DNA of 45,271 nt from Bacteroidota bacterium (lineage in GTDB: Bacteria; Bacteroidota; Bacteroidia; Chitinophagales; Saprospiraceae), in NCBI GenBank assembly GCA_030147525.1, contig JASBVF010000009.1, positions 1 to 45,271 on the forward strand, written 5' to 3'. The translations under genes and the position numbers were made by a program. A model generated the notes under the pieces. That model had not been told where the DNA came from. It saw only the letters and a list, made by a program, of their open reading frames with translations, and did no database searches. Within the stretch, counting starts at the first letter, position 1, and every line of letters starts with the position of its first letter. Of this stretch, positions 6,368 to 37,214 are shown piece after piece.

Positions 6368-6544
6368 CGAGTGACGATTTACGAGTGACGATTTACGATT
6401 TTGGTGGCCCGGAAACGGGCGAAAGGAAGGTGGTGATTTACAAATCAGGATCTGCCAATACGCTAAACATCAGCTCGTTGAATCAAATTCAAATCGTGCG
6501 GGTAGCTAAAAAAATCGTAAATCCTAAGTCGTAAATCCCAAATC
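6368..6544. repeat. mirrored tandem-unit repeat, unit GATTTACGA
   Basis: The left arm (6368-6402) contains GAGTGACGATTTAC twice plus a partial copy. The right arm (6510-6544) carries the reverse complement (ATCGTAAATCCTAAGTCGTAAATC). The loop is about 107 nt and contains a small GCCCG-GAAA-CGGGC hairpin at 6407-6420. The right arm touches the stop codon of the small secreted protein and the left arm lies 5 bp before the czcA-type start, so it fills the gap inside the operon. Confidence 0.75.
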
Positions 6545-6935
6545 AGACAGTTCGAGGCGGCTGCCAGATGTCGTGGAAGAGCGTGAATTCGTAAGATTGA
6601 TCAGCGAAGAGGGGCTGAACGGCAACGGATACCTGCAAGTTCAGCGCAGCAAAAGCAACTGCTGGCAAAACCGCTATCGCCGGTGCATGAAGATGATGGC
6701 AGGAGTCTTTGCCCGGCAGGTTAGAGTGGTCGTGTGCTGAGCGATGCTGAGCGAATTCTTCGCCGTAGTGAATTTTAAAAAACTCCAGGAAGGTGAGTTC
6801 CGGCGTTTCGAGTTTGTGCTCCTGAAAGTGCTCGAGCAGCGATGACAATTTCGTCAATTCCTCCTGCGCCTGAACAGGCACGAGGGCACTGAACAGAAAA
6901 ACGGGAAGGAGTAATATGGCGATTGTTTTACGCAT
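6543..6935 (-). CDS. small secreted His/Cys-rich protein, first gene of the metal-efflux operon
   Basis: Protein of 130 aa that I cannot place in a named family. It has a clear signal peptide (residues 1-23, ending VQAQ). A cluster of possible metal ligands follows: H64, H68, H70, C79, H80, H81 and H83. The C-terminal part has a hydrophobic segment (AIAVLPAVAFAAL) and ends with HDIWQPPR. As first gene of the operon, with its own -7 box, it may sense, buffer or deliver the metal exported by the pump downstream. That role is inferred only from position and composition. Confidence 0.8.
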   Translation of the reverse strand: MRKTIAILLLPVFLFSALVPVQAQEELTKLSSLLEHFQEHKLETPELTFLEFFKIHYGEEFAQHRSAHDHSNLPGKDSCHHLHAPAIAVLPAVAFAALNLQVSVAVQPLFADQSYEFTLFHDIWQPPRTV

Positions 6936-6943
6936 GAAGGTTG

Positions 6944-6951
6944 CAAATATA
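6944..6951 (-). promoter_or_regulatory. -7 box for the metal-efflux operon
   Basis: On the minus strand TATATTTG matches TAnnTTTG exactly, 8 nt before the start codon of the first operon gene. Transcription would start almost at the ATG, giving a very short leader. No clear -33 TTG was found. Confidence 0.55.
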
Positions 6952-7018
6952 GTGAATTAAGAAAAAGCAGCCGTGATTTTTATTACTCGACAAATTAGTT
7001 TATCCCAGATTCTACACC

Positions 7019-7026
7019 TACCTTTG
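7019..7026 (+). promoter_or_regulatory. candidate -7 box for the helicase leader
   Basis: TACCTTTG matches TAnnTTTG. If used, the transcript would have an untranslated leader of about 330 nt before the helicase start at 7364. No good -33 element is visible, so this is tentative. Confidence 0.4.
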
Positions 7027-7363
7027 CGCCCGTTTTACACGAAGCCCTGTTAATCAAGGCTTTTTTATCAAAAATTTTAACCGTTTAAAAAGGTTTAGAC
7101 GGGGTTTGAAAAGGAAAATGCCCACTGCGGCATTGCGAATTGCGAGTAAAATGGCTACCGAAGAGCTTTAATGAACTGTATTAAATCCGCCTGAGTACTC
7201 GCCTGAACGTTGGTCTGAAAAATGACCGGAGAGCGTTCCCGACTTCTCAGATTAATACATTCTAAACCTGTTTTTCGGCAATTGGCTATTTGCTTTTAGT
7301 CATTGGCTTAAATTTTTTTGTGCCAATGAGCGGGCAGATTTTGCCTTCAAATTCGCAATTTTA
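7027..7363 (+). other. long leader/intergenic region before the DEAD-box helicase
   Basis: About 340 bases with no credible coding frame. It holds a terminator-like hairpin at 7042-7066, an A/T-rich stretch with GGTTT/AAACC-type pairings near 7075-7105, and short repeats of TTGGC near 7280-7310. Long structured leaders are known upstream of cold-inducible DEAD-box helicases, so this could be a regulatory 5' UTR. Confidence 0.4.
7042..7066 (+). terminator. terminator-like hairpin in the helicase leader
   Basis: AAGCCCTG pairs with CAAGGCTT around a five-base loop (one mismatch) and is followed immediately by a T run (TTTTTT). It lies about 300 nt before the helicase start, so it could act as an attenuator or as the end of an upstream transcript. 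Confidence 0.4.
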
Positions 7364-8833
7364 ATGACAACTAATCTCACTTTCGGGGATCTGGGCCTCT
7401 CGGCTGACATCCTCGAAGCATTGAAGAAAAAGGGTTTTGAAAACCCGACTCCGGTTCAGGAGCAAACCATTCCACTTTTACTTTCCGGCGAAAAAGACAT
7501 CATTGCGCAAGCTCAAACCGGTACCGGCAAAACCGCTTCCTTCGGCTTGCCGATCATCGAACGCATCACCCCCGGCCTCGGCAAGGTACAGGCTATCGTG
7601 CTCGCCCCTACCCGTGAACTGGCCAGCCAGGTCGCCGAAGAACTCGAAAGCCTGACGGCCAAACGTGACATCCGCATCCTGCCTGTGTACGGCGGACAGG
7701 GTATGGACACCCAGCTTCGCCTGCTGAAAAAAGGCGTTGACATCATCGTCGCCACGCCCGGCCGGGCCATCGACCACCTGAAGCGCAAAACGCTGAAGCT
7801 CGACGATGTGAAATTTGTCGTACTCGACGAAGCCGACGAAATGCTGAACATGGGTTTTGTCGAAGACATCGAAACCATCCTCTCGCACGTGCCGGAAGAG
7901 CGCCGCATGCTGCTGTTTTCTGCCACCATGCCGCCTCCGATCATGCGGCTGGCAAAAAAATTCATGGGCGGCTACGACAAGGTGAAAGTCGCTTCCAAGC
8001 AGCAATCCGCAGCCAACGTAGAGCAGATTTTTTATGAAATGTATGAAAAAGACAAACTGCGGGCGCTCCGCCGTTTGATCGATACCGAGGCGGAATTTTA
8101 TGCCCTCGTTTTCTGCCGCACCCGGGCTGGCTCCGACCGGCTGGCCGCCAAACTGAGCGGTATGGACCTTGACGTTGAAGCGCTGCACGGCGACGTGACG
8201 CAGGCACAGCGGGAACGCATCCTTGCCAAATTCAAGCGGGGCCATTCGACCATTCTCGTAGCTACCGATGTTGCTGCTCGTGGTATTGACATCAACGATT
8301 TGACGCATGTCATCAACTTTGACATGCCGGACAGCTCCGAAGCTTACGTCCACCGCATTGGCCGGACGGGACGGGCCGGTAAAACAGGCAAGGCGATTTC
8401 CTTCGTGGCACCGGGCGAATTCCGCAAGATCCGCAACATCATGGAGGTGACGAAGACGACGATTCAGAAGGCTTACCTGCCATCTGGTCAGTCCGTGATC
8501 GAAGCGAAGCGCAATGCGATGAAAGCCAAGGTTTTTGCGGCAGCGGAAGAGGAAGCCCCACAGGAATTTCACACGCTCGCCAAGGAGATTCTGGACTCTG
8601 GCAAGCCAAAACAGCTGCTGGCTTCCCTGCTGAAAATGCACTTCGGCGGCTCAATGCATCCGAATGCTTATCCTGAAATCATGGAGCCGGAACGCAGAAG
8701 TGCTGCACCTTCGAGAAGGGGTTTTGACAGAAGGCCATCATCTTCCAGGCCATTCAAATCGTTTGGCAAATCCGGCAAGCCGCACAAGCACGAGGCGGCG
8801 GTTTTCAAGAAGAAAAAGAAGGCACATTTTTAA
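7364..8833 (+). CDS. DEAD-box ATP-dependent RNA helicase
   Basis: RNA helicase of 489 aa that remodels RNA duplexes, for example in ribosome assembly, mRNA decay or cold adaptation. All core motifs are visible: Q motif (GFENPTPVQEQ, 24-34), motif I AQTGTGKT (50-57), Ia PTRELA (82-87), GG, motif II DEAD (155-158), motif III SAT (186-188), and in the second RecA domain VATDVAARGID (299-309) and HRIGRTGR (330-337). The C-terminus is a short, very basic Arg/Ser/Lys-rich tail ending in KKKKKAHF, typical of CsdA/CshA-like enzymes and likely to bind RNA. It is monocistronic, with a long leader upstream and a strong terminator downstream. Confidence 0.97.
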   Translation: MTTNLTFGDLGLSADILEALKKKGFENPTPVQEQTIPLLLSGEKDIIAQAQTGTGKTASFGLPIIERITPGLGKVQAIVLAPTRELASQVAEELESLTAKRDIRILPVYGGQGMDTQLRLLKKGVDIIVATPGRAIDHLKRKTLKLDDVKFVVLDEADEMLNMGFVEDIETILSHVPEERRMLLFSATMPPPIMRLAKKFMGGYDKVKVASKQQSAANVEQIFYEMYEKDKLRALRRLIDTEAEFYALVFCRTRAGSDRLAAKLSGMDLDVEALHGDVTQAQRERILAKFKRGHSTILVATDVAARGIDINDLTHVINFDMPDSSEAYVHRIGRTGRAGKTGKAISFVAPGEFRKIRNIMEVTKTTIQKAYLPSGQSVIEAKRNAMKAKVFAAAEEEAPQEFHTLAKEILDSGKPKQLLASLLKMHFGGSMHPNAYPEIMEPERRSAAPSRRGFDRRPSSSRPFKSFGKSGKPHKHEAAVFKKKKKAHF

Positions 8834-8865
8834 TGAAGCCCTTTACGAAATAGTATCGTATTAAA

Positions 8866-8898
8866 AGTCCCGGCACGCTATGCGCCGGGACTTTTTTT
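8866..8898. terminator. intrinsic terminator between convergent genes
   Basis: AGTCCCGGC (8866-8874) pairs with GCCGGGACT (8884-8892) around a 9-nt loop and is followed by a T run to 8898. An A run on the other side makes it usable from both strands, ending the helicase and the SulP transcripts. Confidence 0.9.
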
Positions 8899-8914
8899 AT
8901 AAAACAGGAGGTTT

Positions 8915-10648
8915 TCACTCACTCGCCTGCACCGCATACTCCTTAAATTTCTTCGTAAAACTCCCGTCTTTCACGAGCGCATCGAAGGCATCGATCGATC
9001 GCTGATTGCTCATGAAAAAATTCTCCTCGCCGATTACCTCCATCAACCCCCAGCGGCGCAGCGCATCCCGCACCGGTCCGATGACACTGGTGAAATGGAT
9101 GCGAATGCCCCGTGCCTGCGTTTCCTTGATCCATTCCTCGAGGGCATGTACGGCGCTGCTGTCCACGTGACTGATGCTGTCGCCATTGAGGACGATGAGG
9201 CGCAGGGCTTCTCCTTTTTTAGCCATCAGGGCCTCCATTTTATCTTTGAAATAATTCAGGTTGGCAAAATAGAGCGGGCCGTCGAAGCGCACGACCAGCA
9301 CGTCGGGGCGCTGTTCGAGTTCTTTGAAACGGTCGATGTTGCGGTAAAATTCGGAGTCCGGCACCCGGCCCAGCACCGCTACGTGCGGCTTCGTCGAGCG
9401 GAAGATGACCAGCGCAAGCGAGAGTACCACACCCGTGCCGATGCCAATCTCGATGCCCATCGTCAGCGTGATGATGAAGGTGGCGAACAACATCCAGAAA
9501 TCGGAGCGGTCGTTGTGCCAGAGATGGACGGCTTCTTTCACGTTGATCAAACCCAGCACGGCGACGATGATGACGGCCGCCAGCACGGCATTTGGCAAAT
9601 AATAAAACAACGGCGTCAGGAAGAGCAGCGTCAAAATGATGAGCGCAGCGCTGATGATGCTGGCCAACCCTGTTTTGGCGCCAGCCTGGTCGTTGACGGC
9701 CGTGCGTGAAAAACCGCCTGTCACCGGGTAACCCTGAAAAACGGCAGCACCAAAGTTGGCGACACCAAGGCCGATGAGTTCCTGGTTGGCGTCCACCTTA
9801 TAATTTTTATGTTTGGACTGGATGGCTTTCGCTACCGCAAAACTTTCCATGAAACCCACCAGCGAGATGGTCAGCGCCGCCGTGAGCAGCGATTGCCAGG
9901 TGCTCATGTCGAATGAAGGCAGTGAAAACCCGGGCAGGCCCTGCGGCACCTCGCCGACGATTTTTACGCCCTGCTCCGTCAGCCCGAAACCCCAGACAGC
10001 CAGGATACCAAGTACCACGGCGACCAGTGCGCCGGGGATGGCCTTGTGCAGTTTTTTGATGTATTTGATCAAAAAAATGGCGGCGATGCCGATACCGAGT
10101 GTGACCAGGTGCGTCTGCCCGATATTTTGGCCGGCGGCCAGCAGGATTTCATGCACGTGTTCGCTTTTGGGGAGTTGAATGCCCAGCAGGTGTTTCAACT
10201 GGCTGAGACCGATGATGATCGCCGCCGCAGAAGTAAACCCGCTGATGACCGGGTGCGACAAGAAATTCACCAAGAAGCCCAACCGGAAAACGCCCATCAA
10301 AAACTGGATCGCCCCGGCCATGAACGCCAGCGTCACAGCCAGGTAGAGGTACACTTCCGGGCTTTCTGGGTTCAGCGCACCGATGCCCGCCGCCGTCAGC
10401 AGCGAGACCATCGCTACCGGCCCAACAGCCAACTGACGGCTGGTGCCCAGCAGCGCATACAAAACCAGCGGGATCGTGGAGGCGTAAAGTCCGTGAATCG
10501 GCGGCAGCCCGGCGATCATGGCGTAGGCCATGCCCTGCGGAATGAGCATCACGCCCACGGTCAAGCCTGCGGAAAGGTCGCCGCTAAGCCATTCTTTTTT
10601 ATAATTCGGAAGCCAGGAAAGGACTGGTAAGAGTTGTTTGATTTTCAT
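8915..10648 (-). CDS. SulP/SLC26-family inorganic anion transporter with STAS domain
   Basis: Membrane transporter of 577 aa. The N-terminal region starts LPNYKKEWLSGDLSAGLTVGVMLIPQGMAYA, the sulfate-transporter signature, and spans about 10-14 membrane segments to residue ~410. It is followed by a cytoplasmic STAS domain (about 435-555) containing VLNGDSISHVDSSAVHAL, with the Asp-Ser-Ser of the phospho-acceptor loop. SulP proteins carry sulfate, bicarbonate or other anions. No carbonic anhydrase or sulfate-assimilation gene is adjacent, so the substrate cannot be decided. Confidence 0.95.
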   Translation of the reverse strand: MKIKQLLPVLSWLPNYKKEWLSGDLSAGLTVGVMLIPQGMAYAMIAGLPPIHGLYASTIPLVLYALLGTSRQLAVGPVAMVSLLTAAGIGALNPESPEVYLYLAVTLAFMAGAIQFLMGVFRLGFLVNFLSHPVISGFTSAAAIIIGLSQLKHLLGIQLPKSEHVHEILLAAGQNIGQTHLVTLGIGIAAIFLIKYIKKLHKAIPGALVAVVLGILAVWGFGLTEQGVKIVGEVPQGLPGFSLPSFDMSTWQSLLTAALTISLVGFMESFAVAKAIQSKHKNYKVDANQELIGLGVANFGAAVFQGYPVTGGFSRTAVNDQAGAKTGLASIISAALIILTLLFLTPLFYYLPNAVLAAVIIVAVLGLINVKEAVHLWHNDRSDFWMLFATFIITLTMGIEIGIGTGVVLSLALVIFRSTKPHVAVLGRVPDSEFYRNIDRFKELEQRPDVLVVRFDGPLYFANLNYFKDKMEALMAKKGEALRLIVLNGDSISHVDSSAVHALEEWIKETQARGIRIHFTSVIGPVRDALRRWGLMEVIGEENFFMSNQRSIDAFDALVKDGSFTKKFKEYAVQASE

Positions 10649-10674
10649 TGAAACGATTTTTTCAAAAACAGGTG

Positions 10675-10682
10675 CAAAGGTA
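10675..10682 (-). promoter_or_regulatory. -7 box for the SulP gene
   Basis: TACCTTTG on the minus strand matches TAnnTTTG, 26 nt upstream of the start codon. No obvious -33 partner was found. Confidence 0.5.
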
Positions 10683-10730
10683 CGCCGGATCGGAAGGCGG
10701 GGCAGTGATTTGGGTCACAGAGACGTTTCA

Positions 10731-11141
10731 TCAAACAAACTGTAAGGCAACGCTGACAAACTCCCTGAAGTCAGCAAGATGCTTCTCGATGATACTTTTT
10801 ACAATGGCAAGGTCAAGTTGAGTGTAATTGTGAACAGCCACATTTCGGAACCCCACCATGTGGGATAGTTTTCGGTTGAGATCATCGTCGAGGATCTCAG
10901 CATCACGGAGCAATTCAAAAGCATTTCGGGTGGACTGAGGAACTCCTAAGCTTTTTGTTTTCACAAGATGATTAGCCAGGTCAATAGATTGTTCACAAGC
11001 ACGTTGAAGGTTGAGCAAGATGGCATCCTGGCGCATGAAATTGTTTTCAAAATCCGCCTCATGACCAAAGTAGTCCTCACTGATGCGTTTCAGGCAGCGC
11101 TCAATGCTCATCGTTTTGTTGACAATGATGGAATCAGCCAT
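10731..11141 (-). CDS. HepT-like ribonuclease toxin (HEPN domain)
   Basis: Toxin of 136 aa. I chose the start at 11141 because it overlaps the MntA stop by 8 bp; a longer in-frame reading would run 54 bp further into mntA. The HEPN motif GFRNVAVHNY gives R99-x4-H104-x-Y106, the Rx4HxY motif of HepT: Arg/His are needed for RNase activity, and the Tyr is the residue AMPylated by MntA in studied homologues. Downstream of and coupled to mntA, it forms the standard antitoxin-first pair. Confidence 0.9.
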   Translation of the reverse strand: MADSIIVNKTMSIERCLKRISEDYFGHEADFENNFMRQDAILLNLQRACEQSIDLANHLVKTKSLGVPQSTRNAFELLRDAEILDDDLNRKLSHMVGFRNVAVHNYTQLDLAIVKSIIEKHLADFREFVSVALQFV

Positions 11142-11541: not shown

Positions 11542-11555
11542 AAACTGATTTTCTA

Positions 11556-11563
11556 CAAAAGTA
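11556..11563 (-). promoter_or_regulatory. -7 box for mntA-hepT
   Basis: TACTTTTG on the minus strand matches TAnnTTTG and ends 14 nt before the GTG start, the same distance as at the first VapBC-like pair. Confidence 0.55.
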
Positions 11564-11649
11564 GCCTTTTTTAAAATTGGTTACACACCCGTGACGAAAA
11601 GCAGCAAACCAAACCGCCTTTGCCTTGTTCCTTTTCCCATTCAAAACCG

Positions 11650-11657
11650 TACATTTG
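11650..11657 (+). promoter_or_regulatory. promoter for gcvP
   Basis: TACATTTG matches TAnnTTTG, with a TTG at 11625-11627 (22-nt spacer) as candidate -33 element. Transcription would start near 11662, leaving a leader of about 45 nt. Confidence 0.6.
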
Positions 11658-11707: not shown

Positions 11708-14599
<2,892 letters not shown>

Positions 14600-15822: not shown

Positions 15823-15825
15823 GGC

Positions 15826-16415: not shown

Positions 16416-16952
16416 ATGAACATCCCGGCTGCCCATTTCACAGGAAAATCCGTCCCATCCACCTTTGAAATCCGCCCTATCCGGCCTGAAGACAACGAGC
16501 AAACCGCCCGCCTCATCCGCACCGTGATGACCGAATTCGGCTGCGTCGGCGAAGGCTATTCCATCCTTGATCCCGAGGTGGACGATATGTTCGGCACTTA
16601 CGACCACGACCGGGCCGCCTTCTTCGTCATCACCCGGCCGGGCGACGACACAATCCTCGGCTGCGGCGGCATCGGCCCGCTTTCCGGCGGCGACGAACTG
16701 ACCTGCGAACTGAAAAAAATGTATTTCTACCCCGAACTCCGGGGCCACGGCTTGGGCCGGGAGATGGTCACCCGCTGTCTCGACGCCGCCCGCCAAATCG
16801 GCTACCGGCGCTGCTACCTCGAAACCGTCGCCCGCATGGAGCAGGCCAACCGGCTCTATCAAAAAATGGGTTTCAAAAAAATAGATGCCCCGATGGGATA
16901 TACCGGGCACAGCAGTTGTGAAGCGTGGTACCTGAAAGAAATGATTGAATGA
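16416..16952 (+). CDS. GNAT-family N-acetyltransferase
   Basis: Acetyltransferase of 178 aa that would move an acetyl group from acetyl-CoA to an amine. The acetyl-CoA pyrophosphate loop is visible as RGHGLG within MYFYPELRGHGLGREM (motif A), followed by motif B with ANRLYQKMGFKKI. The acceptor is unknown. The last codons (KEMIE-stop) lie inside a 122-bp tandem duplication shared with the convergent neighbour. Confidence 0.9.
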   Translation: MNIPAAHFTGKSVPSTFEIRPIRPEDNEQTARLIRTVMTEFGCVGEGYSILDPEVDDMFGTYDHDRAAFFVITRPGDDTILGCGGIGPLSGGDELTCELKKMYFYPELRGHGLGREMVTRCLDAARQIGYRRCYLETVARMEQANRLYQKMGFKKIDAPMGYTGHSSCEAWYLKEMIE

Positions 16953-17179
16953 GAGAATGAAGGAATGAGAGAATCTCACTGCCTCGGCGAGCTGTTGAAA
17001 ATCACGACGAACATCATCATCATTTTTGTTTCGAAGGGCACGTCCTCGTTCATTTCAAGGAAATGATTGAATGAGAGAATGAAGGAATGAGAGAATCTCA
17101 CTGCCTCGGCGAGCTGTTGAAAATCACGACGAACATCATCATCATTTTCGTTTCGAAGGGTACGTCCTCGTTCATTTCA
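16938..17179. repeat. 122-bp tandem duplication across a convergent gene junction
   Basis: Copies at 16938-17057 and 17060-17179 differ at only two places (period 122). Each contains the GNAT stop region, an array of GAATGAGA-type units, and the last ~28 codons of the minus-strand Trp-repeat gene. The GNAT uses the first copy and the minus-strand gene ends in the second. That leaves a stranded, non-functional copy of the latter's 3' end at 16976-17059. Confidence 0.95.
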
Positions 17180-17802: not shown

Positions 17803-18111
17803 ATGATTTTATACAACGTAACCGTAAAAATAGATCGCAGCGTCCACGACGAATGGCTCGAATGGATGCAAACGGTTCATATACCAGACGTGATGAATAC
17901 TGGTTTTTTCACAAAAAACCAGCTGATGCGCCTGCTTGATCCGCCGTCCGACGAGGAGGGTATCACTTACGCCATTCAATATTACTGTAAAAATATCGGA
18001 GCGCTGAAACGCTATTGGGACGAGGAAGCGCCCGCCCTGCAAGCCGCCCATACGAAGCGCTACGAGGGGAAATTTGTGGCTTTCAGGACGGTGATGAAAC
18101 TGGTGGAATAA
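17803..18111 (+). CDS. DUF4286-family protein
   Basis: Protein of 102 aa, typical length for DUF4286, a small ferredoxin-like (dimeric alpha/beta barrel type) protein common in Bacteroidota. It starts MILYNVTVKIDRSVHDEWLEWM and contains HIPDVMNTGFF, the family's recognisable segment. Function is unknown. It stands alone, with a GTAGGC-type repeat just after its stop. Confidence 0.85.
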   Translation: MILYNVTVKIDRSVHDEWLEWMQTVHIPDVMNTGFFTKNQLMRLLDPPSDEEGITYAIQYYCKNIGALKRYWDEEAPALQAAHTKRYEGKFVAFRTVMKLVE

Positions 18112-18118
18112 TTTTAAA

Positions 18119-18148
18119 GTAGGCCGGTAGGCAGTAGGCGAGTAGGCT
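18119..18148. repeat. single-arm tandem-unit repeat, unit GTAGGC(GA)
   Basis: Four degenerate copies of GTAGGC with one- or two-base spacers follow the DUF4286 stop. The same unit, in mirrored form, occurs 14 kb away at 32343-32435. No complementary arm was found here. Confidence 0.7.
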
Positions 18149-19599: not shown

Positions 19600-19699
19600 C
19601 TTGTCATGGTCGAAGACAACCTGCAACGTCATGAGTGCTGCAAAAAGTGCCATCGTGACTGCCCTCGTGACGTAGCAGGTGGCCTTCGGCCATGACAAG
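19600..19699. repeat. 100-bp imperfect palindrome (36-bp arms)
   Basis: The left arm 19600-19635 and the reverse complement of the right arm 19664-19699 agree at 31 of 36 positions, with a 28-nt loop. The arms begin CTTGTCATGG and end CATGACAAG. It occupies most of the gap between the DUF1990 and YndJ genes and has no T run. It resembles a REP/BIME unit or a small MITE rather than a terminator. It is not built of a short tandem unit, so it differs from the other repeats here. Confidence 0.85.
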
Positions 19700-20476: not shown

Positions 20477-21472
20477 ATGAAAGCCATCATTCCCGTTGCC
20501 GGCGCCGGCACGCAACTCAGGCCACTGACCTACACACAGCCCAAACCGCTGATCCCGGTTGCGGGGAAGCCGATCATTTCGTTCATCGTGGATCAGCTAC
20601 TGGACCTGGGTGTGGAGGAGTTTATTTTCGTGATCGGTTACCTGGGTGAAAAAATCAAGGACTACATCGATCAGCAATACCCGGAAATTCAGAAGGAATT
20701 CGTCATGCAGGAGCACCGGCTCGGTACGGGCCATGCGATTTGGTCGGCACGGGAAGTCTTGCGAGGCACGGACGAGCTGTTTATTTTTTTCGGCGACACG
20801 ATCGTGGAGATGAATTTTGCAGAAATGCTGGCTTCGCCCATGTCCTGTTTTGCCATTAAAAAAGTAGCGGAGCCGAGGGGTTTCGGCATCGTCGAATTTG
20901 ACGAAAACAAGCAGGTGAAACGGGTGGTCGAAAAACCCAAAATCCCTATGTCGAACATGGCGATGGTCGGACTCTACAAAATCCGGGAAGTAGACATGCT
21001 ACTCGATTCACTGGACCACAACATCGCCAACGGTATTCGCTCAGAGACTGAGTTTGCCCTGACGGACGGACTGATGCGGATGATCGATCAAGGTATTGAT
21101 TTCGCTACCTTTCAGGTGGACAACTGGTACGACTGTGGCAAAAAAGAAAAACTTCTGGAAACCAATGCCCTCCTGCTCGACAAGGAAGGCTATGCCTCTG
21201 ATCACCTGCCGGAGTACGACAACTCCATCGTCATCCATCCGGTGAGCATCGGTAAAAACTGTAAGATCAGCAACTCCATCGTAGGCCCGCACGCTACCAT
21301 TGGCCACAATGCGATGATCGAATCTTCCATCGTAAAAGATTCGATTATCGGAAATTACGCCTCGCTGAACGAAGTAGTGTTGAAAAACTCCGTAATCGGT
21401 AACGATACGGCCATCACCGGCTTCCGGCAAAGCCTGAATATTGGCGACAATACGGAAATTGATTTTAGTTAA
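20477..21472 (+). CDS. sugar-1-phosphate nucleotidyltransferase with left-handed beta-helix tail
   Basis: Enzyme of 331 aa that activates a sugar phosphate as its NDP-sugar, probably for cell-surface glycans. The N-terminal nucleotide-binding segment is MKAIIPVAGAGTQLRPLTYTQPKPLIPVAGK. The Arg of the usual GTRLRP is replaced by Gln, and related Bacteroidota proteins also vary at this place. FFGDTIVEM supplies the metal-binding Asp. From about residue 245 there are hexapeptide repeats (SIGKNCKISNSIVGPHATIGHNAMIESSIV region), a left-handed beta-helix. Substrate (glucose, mannose or other) cannot be told from sequence alone. Confidence 0.9.
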   Translation: MKAIIPVAGAGTQLRPLTYTQPKPLIPVAGKPIISFIVDQLLDLGVEEFIFVIGYLGEKIKDYIDQQYPEIQKEFVMQEHRLGTGHAIWSAREVLRGTDELFIFFGDTIVEMNFAEMLASPMSCFAIKKVAEPRGFGIVEFDENKQVKRVVEKPKIPMSNMAMVGLYKIREVDMLLDSLDHNIANGIRSETEFALTDGLMRMIDQGIDFATFQVDNWYDCGKKEKLLETNALLLDKEGYASDHLPEYDNSIVIHPVSIGKNCKISNSIVGPHATIGHNAMIESSIVKDSIIGNYASLNEVVLKNSVIGNDTAITGFRQSLNIGDNTEIDFS

Positions 21473-21473: not shown

Positions 21474-21553
21474 AAGGATTGAAGGATTGAAGGACTGAGG
21501 GATTGAAGATGGCGCCCCTCCAATCCTTCAATCCTCCAATCCCCCAATCCTCC
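21474..21553. repeat. mirrored tandem-unit repeat, unit GGATTGAA
   Basis: The left arm (21474-21508) is four 8-bp units of GGATTGAA type, the right arm (21519-21553) four units of the reverse complement (TTCAATCC type). The loop is about 10 nt. The hairpin starts 2 bp after the nucleotidyltransferase stop and ends 3 bp before the ATG of the permease-repressor gene. Confidence 0.9.
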
Positions 21554-21556: not shown

Positions 21557-23044
21557 ATGGACCTCCTCCAACATTTCACCGAACCCTGGGCGCTGCGGGC
21601 GCTGGCTGCCTCCTCGATGGTGGGGATTATGTGCGGCATCCTGGGTTGTTTCATTGTGCTGCGTAACATGGCGCTCATCGGAGATGCGTTGAGCCACGCT
21701 ATCCTGCCGGGAGTCGTAGTGGCTTTCATCGTTGTGCAGGGGGCAAGTACGCTGGGGTTTTTCAGTGGAGCGGTGATTGCAGGGTTGTTGTCGGCAGCGC
21801 TCATCACCTGGATCCAGCGGAATGTGAACACCAAAAACGATGCAGCCATCGGCATCGTCTTCACGGCGATGTTTTCACTGGGGGTGATTGGCATTTCCTA
21901 CATCAGCCGTCAGCCGGGGGTACACCTCGATCTGAAAGATTTTTTGTTTGGCAACGTCCTGGGCGTTTCAAACGAAGACCTTTGGCTCACACTGGCCATT
22001 ACCGTTTACGTGCTGTTGAGCGTGGTAGCATTTTACCGCTATCTTTTCATCACCACTTTCCAGCCGGTCATTGCACAGACGATGGGCATTTCGGTGAGTT
22101 CGGTGCATTATTTTCTGATGTTGCTGCTATCGTTTGCAGTGGTGGCTTCGCTGCAAACGGTGGGAGTGATCCTCGTGGTAGCCATGCTGGTAACGCCTGC
22201 GGCGACGGCACTGTTGCTATCTGACCGGCTTCAGTATGTGTTGGGAATTGCGGCGCTGTTTGGGTTGCTTTCGGCAGTGGCGGGGTTGGTGGTTTCGATT
22301 TTATTTGAAACGACGCCCGGACCGGCCATGGCCGTGGTGGCAACTGTTTTTTACCTGTTGGCAGCCTTTTTTTCACCCAAAAAAGGGCTGGTGTTCCGCT
22401 TTTTTCAAAAAAGAAAACTGCAAAACCGCATCCGGCTGGAAGATACGCTGAAGCAGGCATTCAGGCTCCAGCAAAAAGAAAAATTGAGTCTGGAAGTACT
22501 TCAGCAAAATTCAGGCATCAGTAAAAATATTTTACAGCATCAAATCCATAAGCTTCGAAACAAGGGTTGGTTTCAAAAAAACACATTGGCGCTGACGGAG
22601 CAAGGCAAAGAAGAAGCCCGTCGCCTTGTCAGGGCGCACCGCCTCTGGGAAACTTACCTGGCAACGGAGGTAGGCCTGACCAACGAGCAAATCCACGAAG
22701 ACGCCGAAAAATACGAGCACCTGCTTTCCGACGAGGTTCTCGACGAGGTGGATAAAACCCTGGGCTATCCGACGATGGATCCGCATGGCTCGCCCATCCC
22801 TGCCCGCCGGGGTCTGCCTGAATTTTCGCTTCTGCAGCTTGGGCTAAAGGACGCCGGTAAAATTGCACTGAAGCAGCCCAGCGAACACGTGACGGCCCGC
22901 CTTTGGCAATTGGGCTTGTTGCCGGATATGATTTTTACTTTGCAGAAAAATGAAGGAGAGTTCGTAGAGCTTGAGCAGGCCGGAAAGCGAATCAGGATTA
23001 CCAAAGACCTGGCCAGGCGAATCAATGTCGTTGAGGAGAATTAG
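21557..23044 (+). CDS. metal ABC transporter permease fused to an MntR/DtxR-type repressor
   Basis: Fusion protein of 495 aa. Residues 1-275 are an ABC-3 family (ZnuB/MntB/TroC-like) permease with about eight membrane segments, including IGDALSHAILPGV and MLVTPAATALLLS. Residues 290-350 form a winged helix (SGISKNILQHQIHKLRNKGW). Residues 355-425 form the metal-dependent dimerisation domain with H361, E384, E387 and H388 matching MntR H77, E99, E102 and H103, plus PTMDPHGSPIP. Residues 430-495 form a FeoA/SH3-like domain. D296 matches MntR D8, but K299 stands where MntR has E11. No ATPase or binding-protein gene is adjacent. Likely metals are Mn, Zn or Fe. Confidence 0.92.
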   Translation: MDLLQHFTEPWALRALAASSMVGIMCGILGCFIVLRNMALIGDALSHAILPGVVVAFIVVQGASTLGFFSGAVIAGLLSAALITWIQRNVNTKNDAAIGIVFTAMFSLGVIGISYISRQPGVHLDLKDFLFGNVLGVSNEDLWLTLAITVYVLLSVVAFYRYLFITTFQPVIAQTMGISVSSVHYFLMLLLSFAVVASLQTVGVILVVAMLVTPAATALLLSDRLQYVLGIAALFGLLSAVAGLVVSILFETTPGPAMAVVATVFYLLAAFFSPKKGLVFRFFQKRKLQNRIRLEDTLKQAFRLQQKEKLSLEVLQQNSGISKNILQHQIHKLRNKGWFQKNTLALTEQGKEEARRLVRAHRLWETYLATEVGLTNEQIHEDAEKYEHLLSDEVLDEVDKTLGYPTMDPHGSPIPARRGLPEFSLLQLGLKDAGKIALKQPSEHVTARLWQLGLLPDMIFTLQKNEGEFVELEQAGKRIRITKDLARRINVVEEN

Positions 23045-26986: not shown

Positions 26987-27430
26987 TTACCTTTTATTTT
27001 GAAAAAACTGCGTCATCAAACCACTGCATTCGTCCATCATCACGCCAAACTCCACCTTGGTTTTGGGGTGAAGCAGCGCCTTTCCGAATCGCATAAAACC
27101 TCGTTTATCGTCGCTGGCGCCGTACACCAGCCTGCCCAATTGTGACCAACCCAGTGCTCCTGCACACATCACGCATGGTTCCAGCGTGACGTAGAGGGTG
27201 CATTCGTCAAGGTATTTACTACCCAGCGTGTTGGCAGCTGCCGTCAGGGCGAGCATCTCAGCGTGGGCTGTCACATCGTTCAGCAACTCCGTCTGGTTGT
27301 GAGCCCGTGCGATGATGCGATTGCGGCAAACAACGACCGCTCCGACCGGGATTTCATCTTTTTCAAAAGCTGCCTGCGCCTCCTGCAGGGCTTGTTTCAT
27401 AAAATGGGTATCGCTGAAAATAGTGAGCAT
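26987..27430 (-). CDS. tadA: tRNA adenosine deaminase (nucleoside deaminase)
   Basis: Zinc deaminase of 147 aa that converts adenosine-34 of tRNA-Arg(ACG) to inosine. The zinc and catalytic residues are in HAE (H56, E58) and PCVMC (C86, C89), followed by AGALGWSQLGRLVYGA. Length and the RNA-binding C-terminal region fit TadA better than cytosine or guanine deaminases. Its start codon directly abuts a mirrored repeat element and it is divergent from guaB. Confidence 0.93.
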   Translation of the reverse strand: MLTIFSDTHFMKQALQEAQAAFEKDEIPVGAVVVCRNRIIARAHNQTELLNDVTAHAEMLALTAAANTLGSKYLDECTLYVTLEPCVMCAGALGWSQLGRLVYGASDDKRGFMRFGKALLHPKTKVEFGVMMDECSGLMTQFFQNKR

Positions 27431-27604
27431 TTTTGGTAATTGGTGACTGGTGGCTGGTGAACGGGAAGCCGCCCGGTCATTTTGAAATAAATTTTTGCAA
27501 AGAAAACTAAGGCTTGGGACAAATGTTATTTGGTTTCAAAAATAGGGTTTTTATCAATGCCCGTAATTTTCCAATCATCAGTCACTAATTACCATTTACC
27601 AAAA
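27431..27604. repeat. mirrored repeat, unit TGGTGACTGG, between tadA and guaB
   Basis: The left arm (27431-27461; TTGGTGACTGGTGGCTGGTG) and the right arm (27571-27604) are imperfect reverse complements: the right arm read backwards is GGTAATTAGTGACTGATGATTGG. The loop is about 110 nt. The arms begin one base from the tadA start and end 16 bp before the guaB start, filling a divergent intergenic region. Confidence 0.7.
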
Positions 27605-27608
27605 ATAA

Positions 27609-29104
<1,496 letters not shown>

Positions 29105-29105
<1 letters not shown>

Positions 29106-29142
29106 TTGGGAATTAGGAAATTGGTAAATTGGGGAATTAGGA
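29105..29142. repeat. single-arm tandem-unit repeat, unit ATTGGGAATTAGGAA
   Basis: Degenerate copies of AATTGG and AATTAGG (TTGGGAATTAGGAAATTGG and continuing) fill the space between the guaB stop and the glycosylase start. No complementary arm was found. Composition differs sharply from the flanking genes. Confidence 0.65.
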
Positions 29143-29767: not shown

Positions 29768-29824
29768 CTCCCGCAGATTGACGCAGATTTTATTTTCAAA
29801 AAGAATCTGCGAAATCTGCGGGAG
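29768..29824. repeat. mirrored tandem-unit repeat, unit CGCAGATT
   Basis: The left arm (29768-29789) reads CTCCCGCAGATTGACGCAGA, the right arm (29804-29824) AATCTGCGAAATCTGCGGGA. They form a near-perfect 20-bp stem with a 14-nt loop of A/T residues. It starts 6 bp after the glycosylase stop and ends 15 bp before the first glycosyltransferase start. It lacks a T run directly after the stem. Confidence 0.9.
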
Positions 29825-31119: not shown

Positions 31120-32346
31120 ATGCAATTAAAAAATAACCAACTCCATGTCCTCATCATCATCAACCGCCTACACGAGTGGTCCCAGAATTTCATCACCCGG
31201 GAACTGACGGAACTCAACGAGCAGGGCGTCCGCATGCACATCGCCACCCGCAAAATCGTACAGCGGGACGACCTCACCGAGCGGGAAAAAAAGCTACTGT
31301 CCCTTGCCAAGCTGCTGCCTGAAAATCCCTTTTTGCCTAAATTTTGGATAAAAATTGTAAAAACAAAACTCCGCTACACCGGCGGCTACCTGCGGGCGTG
31401 GCGGGCGCTTTTTTCGTTGAAACACAAGCCTTCTAAATTCTTCCGCAGCGTCATTTGCCTCTTTAGGGCGGCAGCCGTGGCCGAGTGGGTCGTTTCACAA
31501 AAAATCAACCTCATCCACGCCCACTTCCTTACCGCCCCCGGCGACACGGCACTCTACCTCTCCAAAATCACCGGCATCCCCTACGGCGGCACCGCCCACG
31601 CCATGGACATCTACACCGACAACAGCGGCCTCGTCGGCAAAATCGCCAACGCCGCCTACCTCAGCACCTGCACCGCCGCCAACGAGCAGTACCTGAAAAC
31701 GCTCCCCGGCGTCGAACCTGAAAAAATCCGCAAACTTTACCACGGCATCGAAATTCAGCCCGAAGAACCAAAGCCAGAAAACCATCGCCCCTTTACCTTC
31801 ATCGCCGTCGGGCGGATGGTGGAAAAAAAGGGTTTTAAATTTCTGATCGAGGCGTGCAGTTTTTTGAAAAAACAGGGCCTCGATTTTCAACTGAACTTCA
31901 TCGGCAACGGTCCGCTGGAGGAGGAACTGAAAGCACAGGCGCAGTCGCTCGGCCTCGCTGACCGCCTGCATTTCAAAGGCATGTTCCCGCCCAATAGCAT
32001 GGGCGAACAGTACCGCCAGGCCGACGTGCTCGTCATGCCCTCCATCGTTGACCCCTCCGGCGACCGGGACGGCCTGCCAAACGTCTGCCTCGAAGCCATG
32101 AACCACGGCCTGCCCATCGTCGGCAGCAACGTCTCCGGCATCCCGGAGGGCGTGGTTCACGGTGAAAACGGCTGGCTCGTCCCTCCCGGCGACTCCGAAA
32201 AACTGGCCGAAGCGATGGCCGAAGCCATTCAACACAAAAATTTATTTGAAATGAAACAAGCAGCACGGCGGATGGCTATCGGGCATTTCAGCCTCGAAAA
32301 CAACATCCGGGCGCTGCGCAAACTGATGGAAGGAGTGGGCAAGTAG
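31120..32346 (+). CDS. GT4-family glycosyltransferase (second tandem copy)
   Basis: Enzyme of 408 aa, paralogue of the preceding gene. It keeps INLIHAHFLTAPGDTALYLS, FTFIAVGRMVEKKGFKFLIEA and CLEAMNHGLPIVGSNVSGIPE. Between the two proteins the middle (residues ~185-225, after the HAMDIY segment) and the donor-binding half diverge strongly, so sugar donor or acceptor may differ. The 50-bp gap between the two genes has no promoter box. The stop is the first base pair group of a mirrored repeat leading into asnB. Confidence 0.92.
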   Translation: MQLKNNQLHVLIIINRLHEWSQNFITRELTELNEQGVRMHIATRKIVQRDDLTEREKKLLSLAKLLPENPFLPKFWIKIVKTKLRYTGGYLRAWRALFSLKHKPSKFFRSVICLFRAAAVAEWVVSQKINLIHAHFLTAPGDTALYLSKITGIPYGGTAHAMDIYTDNSGLVGKIANAAYLSTCTAANEQYLKTLPGVEPEKIRKLYHGIEIQPEEPKPENHRPFTFIAVGRMVEKKGFKFLIEACSFLKKQGLDFQLNFIGNGPLEEELKAQAQSLGLADRLHFKGMFPPNSMGEQYRQADVLVMPSIVDPSGDRDGLPNVCLEAMNHGLPIVGSNVSGIPEGVVHGENGWLVPPGDSEKLAEAMAEAIQHKNLFEMKQAARRMAIGHFSLENNIRALRKLMEGVGK

Positions 32347-32435
32347 GCCGGTAAGCCGGTAGGCAAGTAGGCGAGTCCCAAAGCGGGTGCCTGCATGCCT
32401 ACTCGCCTACTCGCCTACTCGCCTACCGGCCTACT
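32343..32435. repeat. mirrored tandem-unit repeat, unit GTAGGCGA
   Basis: The left arm (32343-32376) starts GTAGGCCGGTAAGCCGGTAG, the right arm (32397-32435) ends CTACTCGCCTACCGGCCTAC. Both are arrays of GTAGGCGA/TCGCCTAC and form a long G/C-rich stem with a ~20-nt loop. It begins inside the glycosyltransferase stop codon and ends 5 bp before the asnB ATG. Confidence 0.92.
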
Positions 32436-32440
32436 AAAAA

Positions 32441-34201: not shown

Positions 34202-34221
34202 GGATATTTCAATTTGGCACC

Positions 34222-34613
34222 TCAAAGCGCAGCCATATCCACCAACCGAAGCCCTGTTATCCTCGAATAATGCTTCGTATTCGTTGAAGCTATCCGAAGT
34301 TGATTTCTCTTGGCAGTAGCGCCGATCAAGATGTCTTCTATGTCAATCATTTGGCCTTTCCGTTGAAGTTCGAGAAAGTCTCTTCCGGCAATTTTTGCGC
34401 TTTCCACATCGAAATCGAGGAGGGTCATATTTGAAAACAGTTGAAGCCAAAAGGCATCTTCGCCGGAGTTATCCCCTTTCCAAAGTTCAAAAACAGAGAT
34501 GGCGGTGATAGCAAAAGAATAATGGGAAATCCTACGAAACAGCAGGCTTTTCGATTTATCCTTTGCCCGCCGGTGGTCGATAAGGTGGAGGTATCAAGGC
34601 AGACTAATTCCAT
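34222..34613 (-). pseudogene. frameshifted vapC toxin gene
   Basis: Read from ATG 34613, the frame begins MELVCLDTSTL and then turns into nonsense. Moving one base at about 34579-34584 restores IDHRRAKDKSKSLLF, then AITAISVFELWKG, and finally joins the frame of the downstream reading (MTLLDFDVESAKI through DIEDILIGATAKR and NTKHYSRITGLRL). Together they make one full VapC of about 130 aa with all PIN segments (LDTS, FELWKG, DIEDILIGATA, TNTKHY). A single missing base therefore inactivates it, unless the sequence has an error there. The antitoxin gene upstream is intact and overlaps its start by 10 bp. Confidence 0.88.
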
Positions 34614-34846
34614 TGGTTGAGGGCTTTTCGCTTTTCCATGATGAGCCTATAATCCTCGTCTTTCATATCGGGCGCCTCAAGCAGAAGACGCTGCAATTCG
34701 GTCAGATCTGTTTTTTCTGGCTTTTGTGGTTTGCCCGTCTGTTTGTTTTGATATTTCTGCAATAGAAATTCAAGAAAATCAAACAGTTCCTGCTTGAGGT
34801 TGTCAGGCAATTGATTGATTTGTTTCAGAAATAGCTGTTCGGTCAT
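34604..34846 (-). CDS. DUF2281-like antitoxin of the broken third VapC pair
   Basis: Protein of 80 aa. ATG 34846 gives MTEQLFLKQINQLPDNLKQE, the usual DUF2281-like start, rather than an upstream in-frame start with unrelated sequence. The N-terminal helix LKQELFDFLEFLLQKY resembles that of the antitoxin at 14746-14976. The C-terminal half (LLLEAPDMKDEDYRLIMEKR) differs. It remains intact although its toxin is frameshifted, as expected if the antitoxin is harmless or still represses its own promoter. Confidence 0.8.
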   Translation of the reverse strand: MTEQLFLKQINQLPDNLKQELFDFLEFLLQKYQNKQTGKPQKPEKTDLTELQRLLLEAPDMKDEDYRLIMEKRKALNQWN

Positions 34847-34876
34847 TTTTTCAGAATTTTTCAATGGAGAACTATA

Positions 34877-34884
34877 CAAAGTTA
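34877..34884 (-). promoter_or_regulatory. -7 box of the third VapBC-like pair
   Basis: TAACTTTG on the minus strand matches TAnnTTTG, 30 nt before the antitoxin start. Confidence 0.5.
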
Positions 34885-34961
34885 ACGGGAGTTTCCTGAT
34901 TTGAAAATACCGGTAAGATTTTATATCCCTCTTGGTAATTTCAAAAAAGTCTATCACCATC

Positions 34962-35025
34962 TGGTTCGACCTGGATTTTTTGAAAAACTGTTTGCGGAGT
35001 ATTTGCGGGGTAAAATCACCTTTGG
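34962..35025 (+). pseudogene. remnant of an asnB-type 3' end
   Basis: These bases align with asnB 34091-34155: TGGTTCGA, TGGATT, TTTGAAAAA, CTGTTTGCGGAG and AATCACC recur in order. Translated with one frameshift it gives WFDLDFLK then LFAEYLRGK, against WFDMDSLKKLFAEHLKGK in AsnB. The divergence suggests the tail of a former second asnB rather than a fresh copy. The VapBC-like remnant lies between the two. Confidence 0.75.
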
Positions 35026-35044
35026 AGGAGTTTTAACTTGAGCA

Positions 35045-35569
35045 ATGAATAGAACTACTCATCGTTTCAAAACAAACTCAATCCAAAAAGACGTGCAAAC
35101 AAAATTCCGAACCCAATTCTTGAAATACTTCCTGCCCGCCATTTTATTAGTTCTCACCATTGCATCCGACGGCTGCAAAAAAGCATGCGAGATCCCTCCC
35201 GACGACCGAACCCTGAAAATCGTCGTTTTTGAATCTGGTGAAAATGCGGTTGAAATTTACAATGAAAAAGACTTCGTCATTACGGAGGATAGTGCGGTCA
35301 ATTTCCAAATTCCACCGGTGCTTGAATTTCATGAAGACCACGTTGATGCCCGATTCGTGATGGACTGCGATGCAAAGGAGACGGTCAAATATTTTGGCAT
35401 TTCCGTCAAAGGCCAATCCGTTGAACAGCTAAAGGTGACTATCAGTAAAACTTCCAACGAACATTGCGAATGCGGTGAAATGGCTGGAACGATAACGAGT
35501 ATTGTTGCTGCAAAAAATTCATTAGTGCAAGTTTCGCCGGGTGATCATTTTCTCAGAATTGAACTATAA
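35045..35569 (+). CDS. hypothetical exported protein
   Basis: Unrecognised protein of 174 aa. The N-terminus is long and basic (to residue ~25), then hydrophobic (YFLPAILLVLTIASDGC), suggesting an uncleaved anchor or a poor lipoprotein signal. The mature part has several cysteines (GCKKACEIPP, MDCDAK, EHCECGE) and alternating beta-type sequence. It stands alone between the broken toxin pair and the convergent flippase gene. No function can be given. Confidence 0.65.
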   Translation: MNRTTHRFKTNSIQKDVQTKFRTQFLKYFLPAILLVLTIASDGCKKACEIPPDDRTLKIVVFESGENAVEIYNEKDFVITEDSAVNFQIPPVLEFHEDHVDARFVMDCDAKETVKYFGISVKGQSVEQLKVTISKTSNEHCECGEMAGTITSIVAAKNSLVQVSPGDHFLRIEL

Positions 35570-35590
35570 AAACCGGAACTAAAATATTTT

Positions 35591-37099
35591 CTACTTCCTC
35601 ACCTTCCCCGCCCGCAACAACCTTCGCCAATCCTCCTCCTCCACAATCCCCGTCCCCCTTGCCAGCACGAGGTACACCAGCAGGTAAGCCACCGCCAGCA
35701 CGAAGAATCCTGCCGCTGCCGGCATTTCAACCTGGTATTTTAAAATAAAAACCGGCACGGCGGCCAGCGCTGCCACGCCGAGCGCCTTACCGTAAAACGC
35801 AAACGGGAACACTTCCGAAAACCGGATGTCCAGCAGCCGCCGGATGCGATCGAGGGCATACCACCAGGTGAAGGTATTGGCGATCAGCGAGGCCAGCGGC
35901 GGCCCGGCGATGCCCAGCCACATGACGAACGGCACGGACAGCGCAACGTTGATCACGAACAGGTAAATGGCGGCGTAGGTGATTTCCTTCGTGCTGCCGA
36001 GCGCCTTTTGCATGTTGCTGTACGATGCCACCCGTTGCAGTAAGATGAAGGTGTAAATGCGGAACGGAATGGCCGCATCGGCGTAGTTTTCCGGGAAGAG
36101 CAGGGCGATGAATTCCTCCGCTGCCACGATGAACACCATGACCAGCGGCAGCACGATGACCGTGACTTTGCGGATGCTTTTGTACCAAAGTGCGAGCAGC
36201 GGCTCTTTTTCGTTGCGGAGGTAGTGGCCGATGAGTTGAGGCATCATCACCGAGGCGATGGAGTAGGCGATGGTCGGGATGATCGGGATTTCGTAGGCTC
36301 CGGCGGTGTAGATGGCGAATGTGGCAGGCATAAACCACTGCACGATGTACTTGTCCACCTGCCGGTTGAGGCCCCAGAAAATCTGGGCGAGGCTGAGCGG
36401 TACGGAGTAAGTGAAAAGCTCCCGCACCGTGCCGGGCGGCAGCGGCTCCGCCGTTTCATTTTTAAATAAACGATGGAAAATACCGGCACTGATGGCCAGT
36501 CGCAGCACGCCGTACACCAGCAGTCCCCAGGTGATGCCTGCCACGGGGTTGGGCAGCAGCAGCGGGATGGTCATGGCGGCGAACTGGGTGAGACCGATGA
36601 AAAGATTCAGCCAGGCCGCCCCCTTCGCCCGGTCGAGGGCGATGAGGATATTGGGCATGGGCAGCGTAGGCAGTTCGAAAATGAGCAGACCCATCAGCGC
36701 CCAGATGAGCAGGCGCACCTCGCCGAAGCCCTCCCTCGTGGCGCCCACCCAGGCAATAGCCAGCATGACGATGGCCCCGGCGATGCTGAGCCAGAGCAGC
36801 GCCTTGCCGATGAGCAGGGCGACGCCCTTGCGGAGGTTGGGGTTGAGTTTTTCAAAAAAATAAAAAACGCTGTCGGGCAGGCCGAGCTGGCCGAAGGTTT
36901 GAGCGGTGCCGTAGATCGTGAGCAGGTAAAAAACGATGCCCGCTTCCTCCTCCGACAGGCTGTGCGTAAGGACGACCACGGCCATCAACTGTGCCAGGAT
37001 GGTAACGGCCCGGCTGATGGTGAAGATGCCCGCCTTGCGGGCCAGGCTCATGGGCTTTTTGCCGGAAGGTGGGTCGTTTTGATAATTTTTAGATGCCAA
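35591..37099 (-). CDS. polysaccharide flippase, Wzx/MOP superfamily
   Basis: Membrane protein of 502 aa with about 12-14 hydrophobic segments. It opens with a polar N-terminus and AGIFTISRAVTILAQLMAVVVLTHSLSEEEAG, typical of Wzx/RfbX-like oligosaccharide flippases that move lipid-linked sugar units across the inner membrane. Conserved features include QLGLPDSVFYFFEK and a mid-protein RQVDKYIVQWF. It fits with the two glycosyltransferases and asnB in the 30-34 kb block, though it lies on the opposite strand. Confidence 0.9.
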   Translation of the reverse strand: MASKNYQNDPPSGKKPMSLARKAGIFTISRAVTILAQLMAVVVLTHSLSEEEAGIVFYLLTIYGTAQTFGQLGLPDSVFYFFEKLNPNLRKGVALLIGKALLWLSIAGAIVMLAIAWVGATREGFGEVRLLIWALMGLLIFELPTLPMPNILIALDRAKGAAWLNLFIGLTQFAAMTIPLLLPNPVAGITWGLLVYGVLRLAISAGIFHRLFKNETAEPLPPGTVRELFTYSVPLSLAQIFWGLNRQVDKYIVQWFMPATFAIYTAGAYEIPIIPTIAYSIASVMMPQLIGHYLRNEKEPLLALWYKSIRKVTVIVLPLVMVFIVAAEEFIALLFPENYADAAIPFRIYTFILLQRVASYSNMQKALGSTKEITYAAIYLFVINVALSVPFVMWLGIAGPPLASLIANTFTWWYALDRIRRLLDIRFSEVFPFAFYGKALGVAALAAVPVFILKYQVEMPAAAGFFVLAVAYLLVYLVLARGTGIVEEEDWRRLLRAGKVRK

Positions 37100-37119
37100 A
37101 GTCAGTTATGGAAAGGATT

Positions 37120-37214
37120 CAATTTTGATTTTTGATTCTTTGAATCTTGATTTTTGATTTTTGATTTTGGGACCTCAATCAAAAATCAAGTTTCAAAAAT
37201 CGAAGAATCTGAAA
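37120..37214. repeat. mirrored tandem-unit repeat, unit TTGATTTT
   Basis: The left arm (37120-37169) is an array of TTGATTTT with an internal GATTC-TTT-GAATC. The right arm (37175-37214) is the complementary array AATCAAAAATCAAG and onward. The loop is only a few bases. It lies between the divergent flippase and T9SS plug genes, so it cannot be a terminator for either. Confidence 0.88.

Follow-up and report, generated by a model that had tools for sequence, protein, structure and literature searches.

How can intergenic sites of one bacterial genome share an architecture, in which an array of a short degenerate unit faces its own reverse complement, while differing in sequence from site to site? 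The question is raised by a stretch of 45,271 nucleotides (the window), contig JASBVF010000009.1 of assembly GCA_030147525.1, which is one contig of the 7.08 Mb genome of a Bacteroidota bacterium of the Saprospiraceae. A first-pass annotation, made from the letters of this stretch, had listed five such mirrored arrays and a probable sixth, and had ascribed them either to a local copying process or to selection for hairpin shape rather than sequence. A common architecture with differing sequences was indeed found. New here is a vocabulary of many words under a single gene-edge rule, with words that differ at orthologous slots; arrays of a single word are known from Xanthomonas.

The genome-wide search for inverted arrays that had been put forward as a check was run on two samples of the genome, 845 kb for tandem arrays and 1.645 Mb (913 gaps of 30-1440 bp) for hairpins, and also in other genomes. 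The contigs sampled were chosen for high coordinates in the genome match list of GGATTGAAGGATTGAAGG, and genes were called by our own codon-usage script rather than by a standard annotator. Tandem Repeats Finder detected 242 arrays in the 845 kb, with a period of 8 in 70 and of 7 in 29, whereas two shuffles of the same DNA yielded 22 and 17 arrays, none with either period. Intergenic arrays with periods of 6-9 numbered 124: 74 had an inverted partner (score of at least 32 within 250 bp), none did when the flanks were reversed or complemented, and 4 had a direct partner; for arrays called genic, an inverted partner was found in 10 of 113, with 1 in the complement control. The 913 gaps contained 191 hairpins, compared with 1 in one dinucleotide shuffle per gap, and 120 of the 191 were array-like as against 21 once the arms had been shuffled. 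About one gap in eight (120/913) holds an array-like mirrored element, which confirms mirrored arrays as a genuine, genome-wide feature of intergenic gaps. Their placement between co-directional and divergent genes, with 16 array-like elements in divergent gaps, is as first described, but that description was incomplete: convergent gaps carry elements too, and short convergent gaps are the richest of all (23 of 64).

How are the arrays oriented with respect to the genes that flank them? A single polarity rule, missed in the first pass, holds throughout: read outward from the gene, an array is rich in G and poor in C. Among the 120 array-like elements, 104 are G-first, 15 C-first and one is a tie, compared with 40, 28 and 3 among the other hairpins. 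The rule is kept in each of four gene contexts (G-first to C-first, 27:2, 38:8, 25:3 and 14:2) and in two further genomes taken together, G001 and G004 (40:2), which have orthologous elements in common and are not two independent replicates. A palindrome is identical on both strands, so the choice of strand does not account for this polarity. Unpaired arrays (n = 88, after discarding those with a G-C difference below 3) follow the same rule close to genes. Within 30 bp of a start the sense strand is C-rich in 25 and G-rich in 1, and within 30 bp of a stop it is G-rich in 27 and C-rich in 4; this gives 52 arrays with the rule and 5 against, compared with 19 with and 12 against at more than 30 bp (Fisher p = 0.0013). 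The corresponding counts in G001 and G004 are 16 and 1 near genes and 4 and 7 far from them, and with both flanking genes over 30 bp away mirrored elements split into 5 G and 3 C. Because unpaired arrays keep the rule near genes, and much less so far away, we reject snap-back copying alone as the main cause of G-first polarity. In our reading it is the gene edge that carries the rule, and mirrored elements follow it because each of their arms sits at such an edge. Of 133 stop-side arms, 50 adjoin or overlap the stop codon (in the window at 32342 and 16947, for example), and of 107 start-side arms 7 do so at the start codon; 110 and 43 arms of the two sets, respectively, lie within 15 bp of the codon. 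In genome G007, judged by eye, two different words face one another across one gap, each with the correct polarity.

The units had initially been taken as specific to their sites. This did not hold: they belong to a shared genome-wide vocabulary, which is in part cross-phylum. The GTAGGC word is common to the sites at 18118 and 32342, and GGATTGAAGGATTGAAGG, allowing up to three mismatches, occurs at 179 places in the genome as against 7 for its reversed control. Eighteen words account for 94 of the 120 elements (AATTRGTR alone for 18) under our own definition, a set of regular expressions fixed post hoc after inspection of the data, with 26 elements remaining as 'other'. Units are 7-9 bp long, most frequently 8 bp, and GGG is depleted in the arms (68 vs 124 in column-permuted arms). 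The exact mirrored GGATTG pattern was found in 49 public-genome stretches, with titles that name Saprospiraceae in 31 and Bacteroidetes bacterium in 7; the remaining 11 include Acidimicrobiia, Vicinamibacterales, Gemmatimonadetes and Desulfosarcina; the genomes in this cross-phylum comparison had been selected for carrying a match. One Acidimicrobiia and one Vicinamibacterales locus have a 20-nt end, GTTATTGAGGATTGAGGATT, in common. Within the order, GGATTGRR is patchy, with two units present in 28 of 298 genomes, our own included, and with 98 copies in our own genome and 69, 68 and 1 in three congeners drawn. Carriage by viruses was rejected, as the mirrored GGATTG had no match in the viral contigs searched, and only a 21-nt composite, TTATTGAGGATTGAGGATTGG, was seen, once in each of two contigs (L309 and L310). 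A family built on a composite word lies at C54:25012, C56:146894, 182631, 184721 and C9:54687, 57716; its arms of 47-49 nt are 0.81 alike across sites and its loops unrelated, which makes it suited to tracing the spread of arms.

Do the two arms of an element share a history? In three word families, own arms are 0.89-0.94 identical, compared with 0.69-0.81 for arms of the same word elsewhere, and they match with higher scores (45.7 vs 36.1 for AATTRGTR, 38.7 vs 23.0 for ATGATGAA). Loops in three families are 0.45-0.50 identical between sites, against 0.42-0.45 when shuffled. A special loop motif was rejected: among 107 loops, GGG-n-CCC turned up in 4 where 0.8 would be expected, which is too few. 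The idea that loops are kept better than arms was not borne out in the four orthologous pairs measured, in which arms are 0.60-0.76 and loops 0.33-0.68 identical. Between G001 and G004, ATTGGTG at one slot is replaced by ATTGGGC in both arms, and another slot shows a matched T/A change in both arms (CGACAG/CTGTCG to CGTCAG/CTGACG). The better match of own arms, together with this word switch and this paired change between species, lends support to the local copying process suggested at the outset.

Orthologous gaps were compared between species, as had also been advised, and unit words differ at some slots: mirrored arrays of different words occupy some orthologous slots in other species, and occupancy of these slots is partial. 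We counted ungapped stems scoring at least 30 and called them array-like at a core of at least 3; arm pairs that contain gaps escape detection by this measure. The slot past the stop of the methylpurine-DNA glycosylase gene (29.8 kb), inspected in 10 of the 13 genomes with a matching gene, has a stem above this threshold in 6 of 10, array-like in 4. Mirrored AGTTGGCAG arrays lie above the cut-off in these four genomes, our own genome has a two-unit CGCAGATT pair that scores 24, G012 and G009 have other palindromes (48 and 40), G002 has one scoring 29, G008 has a single array by eye and G010 nothing clear. Palindromes that are not arrays, GGCGACTTCAGTCGCC, GAGCGGCAGGGTT and GGGAGGCACCACGCC, were noted at this slot at loci L106, L107 and L109, with arrays there in other species. 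At the 21.5 kb slot, ahead of the ABC-3 permease gene, the upstream gene is retained at 6 of 14 loci, and one of these six genomes, our own, has a stem of at least 30 (GGATTGRA, 38). Near misses there are an ATACTGG-type array in G007 (29) and a GATTGTT-type array in G011 (28), and G006, G009 and G001 lack an ungapped stem, G006 being arrayed by eye. The divergent slot at 37.1 kb has a stem in 3 of 9 genomes, array-like in our own and in G008, where the mirrored word is GGTTCT, and a long non-array inverted repeat in G006. Stems at the 27.4 kb slot occur in 3 of 6 genomes, array-like in our own and non-array in the two others. The 32.3 kb slot was left out of the comparison, its best asparagine synthase matches beyond our own gene being at most 43% identical.

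What process could bring about such elements? Four things were observed directly: an excess across the genome, a polarity rule that weakens with distance from the gene, own arms that match better than others, and words that differ at orthologous slots. As their explanation we propose, with a probability of about 0.5, slippage arrays that are anchored at gene boundaries, gain a mirror arm and stay complementary to it through snap-back template switching, and are filtered in their orientation by translation signals. In short gaps between genes, and often right against a stop or start codon, slippage would expand units of 7-9 bp; snap-back copying of the first arm would write the second and later keep it complementary. 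The two arms would thus come to resemble a single mirrored element, in which both arms can switch word at once. The neighbouring gene might then act as a filter, tolerating past its stop a sense strand that is G/A/T-rich and bears stops, and before its start a C/A/T-rich one with few false starts. For words to spread among sites, an arm would occasionally have to be copied to a new edge, which we assume. Template switching is described as inferred to create and mend the stems of hairpins (PMC8794818).

Several points weigh against this proposal. Words common to many sites and phyla exceed what local slippage can yield, and hairpins with unrelated sequences recur at one slot (that of the glycosylase gene, 6 of 10), which selection for hairpins would also explain. 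The number of frames with stops in the arms is 2.10 as against 1.93 in column-permuted arms (standard deviation 0.04), with TGA up and TAG down, and selection for stop codons in all frames was set aside because this excess was slight. Starts near G-sense arrays may be biased by the way we called genes, the comparison of arms used elements already picked by their stem score, and no mutation event was observed, the species compared being 77-89% identical, which puts single steps out of reach.

Might the elements instead be RNA hairpins under selection, acting between genes as terminators or 3'-end stabilisers with a sequence free to vary? We consider this doubtful, although it fares better than the other alternatives. 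As RNA, four of the six mirrored sites of the window, those at 21.5, 29.8, 32.3 and 37.1 kb, fold better than shuffled sequence (z between -9.7 and -3.9), and given such strong folding an effect of the hairpins on transcripts is possible. The closeness of arms to stops and starts and the richness of short convergent gaps also speak for selection, as does the glycosylase slot, where two genomes beyond the six with a full stem reach 29 and 24 and five unrelated sequences are represented. Selection as RNA predicts an excess of G.U mismatches on the transcribed strand, however, and none was seen: co-directional gaps show 94 A.C, 70 G.U and 85 transversion mismatches (p = 0.07, opposite to RNA selection), and G001 and G004 show 28, 15 and 36. 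Selection for the shape of an RNA hairpin, the second cause suggested in the first-pass annotation, is therefore not shown, and the absence of a G.U excess is what copying at the DNA level predicts. (Convergent and divergent gaps, where the transcribed strand is ambiguous and the + strand alone was read, give 45 G.T and 29 A.C.) Nor do array-like elements look like intrinsic terminators, that is, a hairpin with a U-tract on the transcribed strand. Four T within the 8 bases before or the 8 bases after the stem end were found at 18 of 133 gene-facing array-like sides compared with 34 of 88 for other hairpins, and directly past the stem at 5 of 133 compared with 11 of 88. Terminators lacking poly-U are on record (PMC8355165), but the low rate of TTTT and the 16 elements in divergent gaps imply, in agreement with the original view, that the elements are not simply terminators. 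Two single arms show no RNA folding beyond shuffles, yet single arms keep the same polarity rule, and the divergent 37.1 kb slot lacks a stem of at least 30 in 6 of 9 genomes.

That the elements are small mobile elements of a REP- or MITE-like kind, mobilised by a transposase or by other machinery acting in trans, is unlikely. There are families with similar arms at many sites, words are patchy among genomes and congeners, the 20-nt end noted above is common to an Acidimicrobiia and a Vicinamibacterales locus, and one element (A_C50:13952) is present in G001 and absent in G004. Mobile copies should agree as wholes, however, and here loops are unrelated across sites (6 of 141 pairs reach 0.75), words differ in place at orthologous slots, and the viral contigs returned no mirrored GGATTG. 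A protein that binds DNA or RNA might recognise the elements; such a role has been put forward for the TAACTGA repeats (PMC4679880), which sets a precedent, and the intergenic position would suit it. With 18 words in one genome, and with words that differ from species to species at orthologous slots, however, no common recognition sequence is apparent, and we hold this reading to be very improbable. Least probable of all is a dedicated enzyme or RNA-templated polymerase that adds G-rich, C-poor repeats at gene edges and snaps back for the mirror arm, its species-specific vocabulary spreading between phyla; it would be the bacterial counterpart, in the DNA between genes, of telomere-like repeat addition, but a reverse transcriptase search of the genome gave one RVT_1 match, and a telomerase-like or reverse-transcriptase origin was set aside as the main account on that ground.

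Are such elements known elsewhere? Intergenic heptamer arrays, the STRR of cyanobacteria, were reportedly described by Mazel in 1990, and to our knowledge neither an origin nor a function has been agreed on for such long-reported arrays. A REP family is built on a conserved palindrome, unlike the elements here, whose words are free, units tandem and loops unrelated. What they have in common with REP and REPIN palindromes is that they are dispersed extragenic hairpins (PMC3116915, PMC3733652). The initial statement that no named element resembles them was too strong, given the mirrored Xanthomonas heptamers and cyanobacterial STRR hairpins (PMC4692102, PMC2670836). The closest published case is that of the Xanthomonas GGGAATC heptamers, followed by the STRRs. 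The former are described as forming 70 and 75 convergent array pairs that make up inverted repeats, with a G-rich sense strand past stops, overlap with the stop codon included, and a G-rich antisense strand before starts; the single or paired type is mostly retained between two species (Rehm et al., 2015, PMC4692102). Our elements likewise are intergenic tandem arrays with a unit of about 7 bp, are paired convergently, and have the same orientation past stops and before starts. According to the same report, however, the heptamers consist of one word whose G-runs form quadruplexes, and divergent gaps are under-represented (PMC4692102), whereas here 18 words of 7-9 bp contain few G-runs. The better match of own arms and the word differences at orthologous slots also set our elements apart. 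We do not claim membership in the Xanthomonas type, because the single G-run word is lacking.

STRR heptamers are short intergenic arrays as well, some of which are said to form hairpins between genes, with a function given as unknown (PMC2670836); they are 7-bp units of filamentous cyanobacteria, whereas here 8-bp units are commonest and the host resembles Saprospiraceae. Nostoc is reported to have few paired repeats (PMC4692102), and in 300 kb of Trichormus, plasmids only, we found 8 arrays of period 7 and 2 mirrored array-like elements, one G-first and one C-first. The TAACTGA repeats of Beggiatoaceae also are intergenic arrays, patchy across distant phyla, Bacteroidetes included, along strain-specific paths. 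They are described as one word, mostly just ahead of starts, with 169 direct-repeat sets and one indirect set in the main genome (MacGregor, 2015, PMC4679880), unlike the mirrored, many-word elements here. We conclude that the elements represent a known but unexplained kind of repeat array in a variant with many words. With many words in one genome under one orientation rule, a mirror form that is kept and words that differ at orthologous sites, architecture becomes separable from sequence, and models of origin become testable through comparison of close strains. A caution follows as well: a recurring hairpin slot and paired changes in the arms, commonly taken as proof of an RNA function, can lack the wobble signature of RNA selection.

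Within the window, the five mirrored arrays first listed lie at 6376-6537, 21475-21551, 29770-29823, 32342-32435 and 37126-37217, and Rfam gave no match in the window at gathering thresholds. The first has a left arm of the GATTTACGA word (6376-6402, +; 27 nt) upstream of the start of an AcrB-like gene (3214-6363, -), 89% complementary to the right arm, TCGTAAATC (6511-6537, -), which ends 5 bp from the stop of an open reading frame at 6543-6935 (-). At the second, the GGATTGRR arm (21475-21508, +) begins 2 bp past the stop codon of the gene at 20477-21472 (+), and its partner, CAATCCYY (21518-21551, -), lies 5 bp ahead of where the ABC-3 permease fusion gene starts (21557, +). The CGCAGATT arm (29770-29789, +), 8 bp past the glycosylase stop, is an exception in that its word contains C; it and its partner, AATCTGCG (29804-29823, -), have two units each, offset by 1 nt, and although they score below the cut-off of 30 they fold well (z -9.7). 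The unit of the GTAGGC arm (32342-32376, +; z -8.3) contains the TAG stop of the glycosyltransferase gene at 31120-32346, and the GCCTAC arm (32401-32435, -) lies 5 bp ahead of the asparagine synthase start (32441, +). The last, with arms of TTTTTGATT (37126-37166, +) and AATCAAAAA (37177-37217, -), sits in the middle of a divergent gap and folds with z -3.9, 2 of 200 shuffles folding equally well. The probable sixth site, given as 27431-27604, is present but weaker (77% complementary): its left arm, of the TGGTGACTGG/AATTGG word (27429-27467, +), extends to the start codon of a deaminase gene (26987-27430, -), and its right arm (27568-27606, -) lies in the same divergent gap upstream of the IMPDH gene.

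Of the single arms proposed, two are real. One, of the GTAGGC word (18118-18147, +), begins 6 bp past the stop of the gene at 17803-18111 (+), and the other, of the AATTGGGA word (29104-29142, +), overlaps the IMPDH stop codon and does not fold (z +1.8); the sense strand is G-rich in both. Two GAATGAGA arrays (16947-16974 and 17069-17096), by contrast, proved to be copies within one 122-bp tandem duplication (16938-17179, strand not assigned; two copies, 98%) and are not independent sites, and the TGA stop of a GNAT gene (16416-16952) sits inside the first. The contig opens with a run of 26 C at 34-59, at its very start, possibly a contig-end artefact. A 39-nt palindrome within 19600-19699, beginning with CTTGTCATGGTCGAAGACAACC, is REP-like rather than array-like and belongs to a dispersed family with copies in the same genome at C54:32645, C54:104228, C56:12811, C56:257167 and C56:295348. 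The gene at 21557-23044 fuses an ABC-3 metal permease domain with an iron-dependent repressor C-terminal domain, and near-full-length matches to this fusion were found in 12 of the 29 relatives searched.

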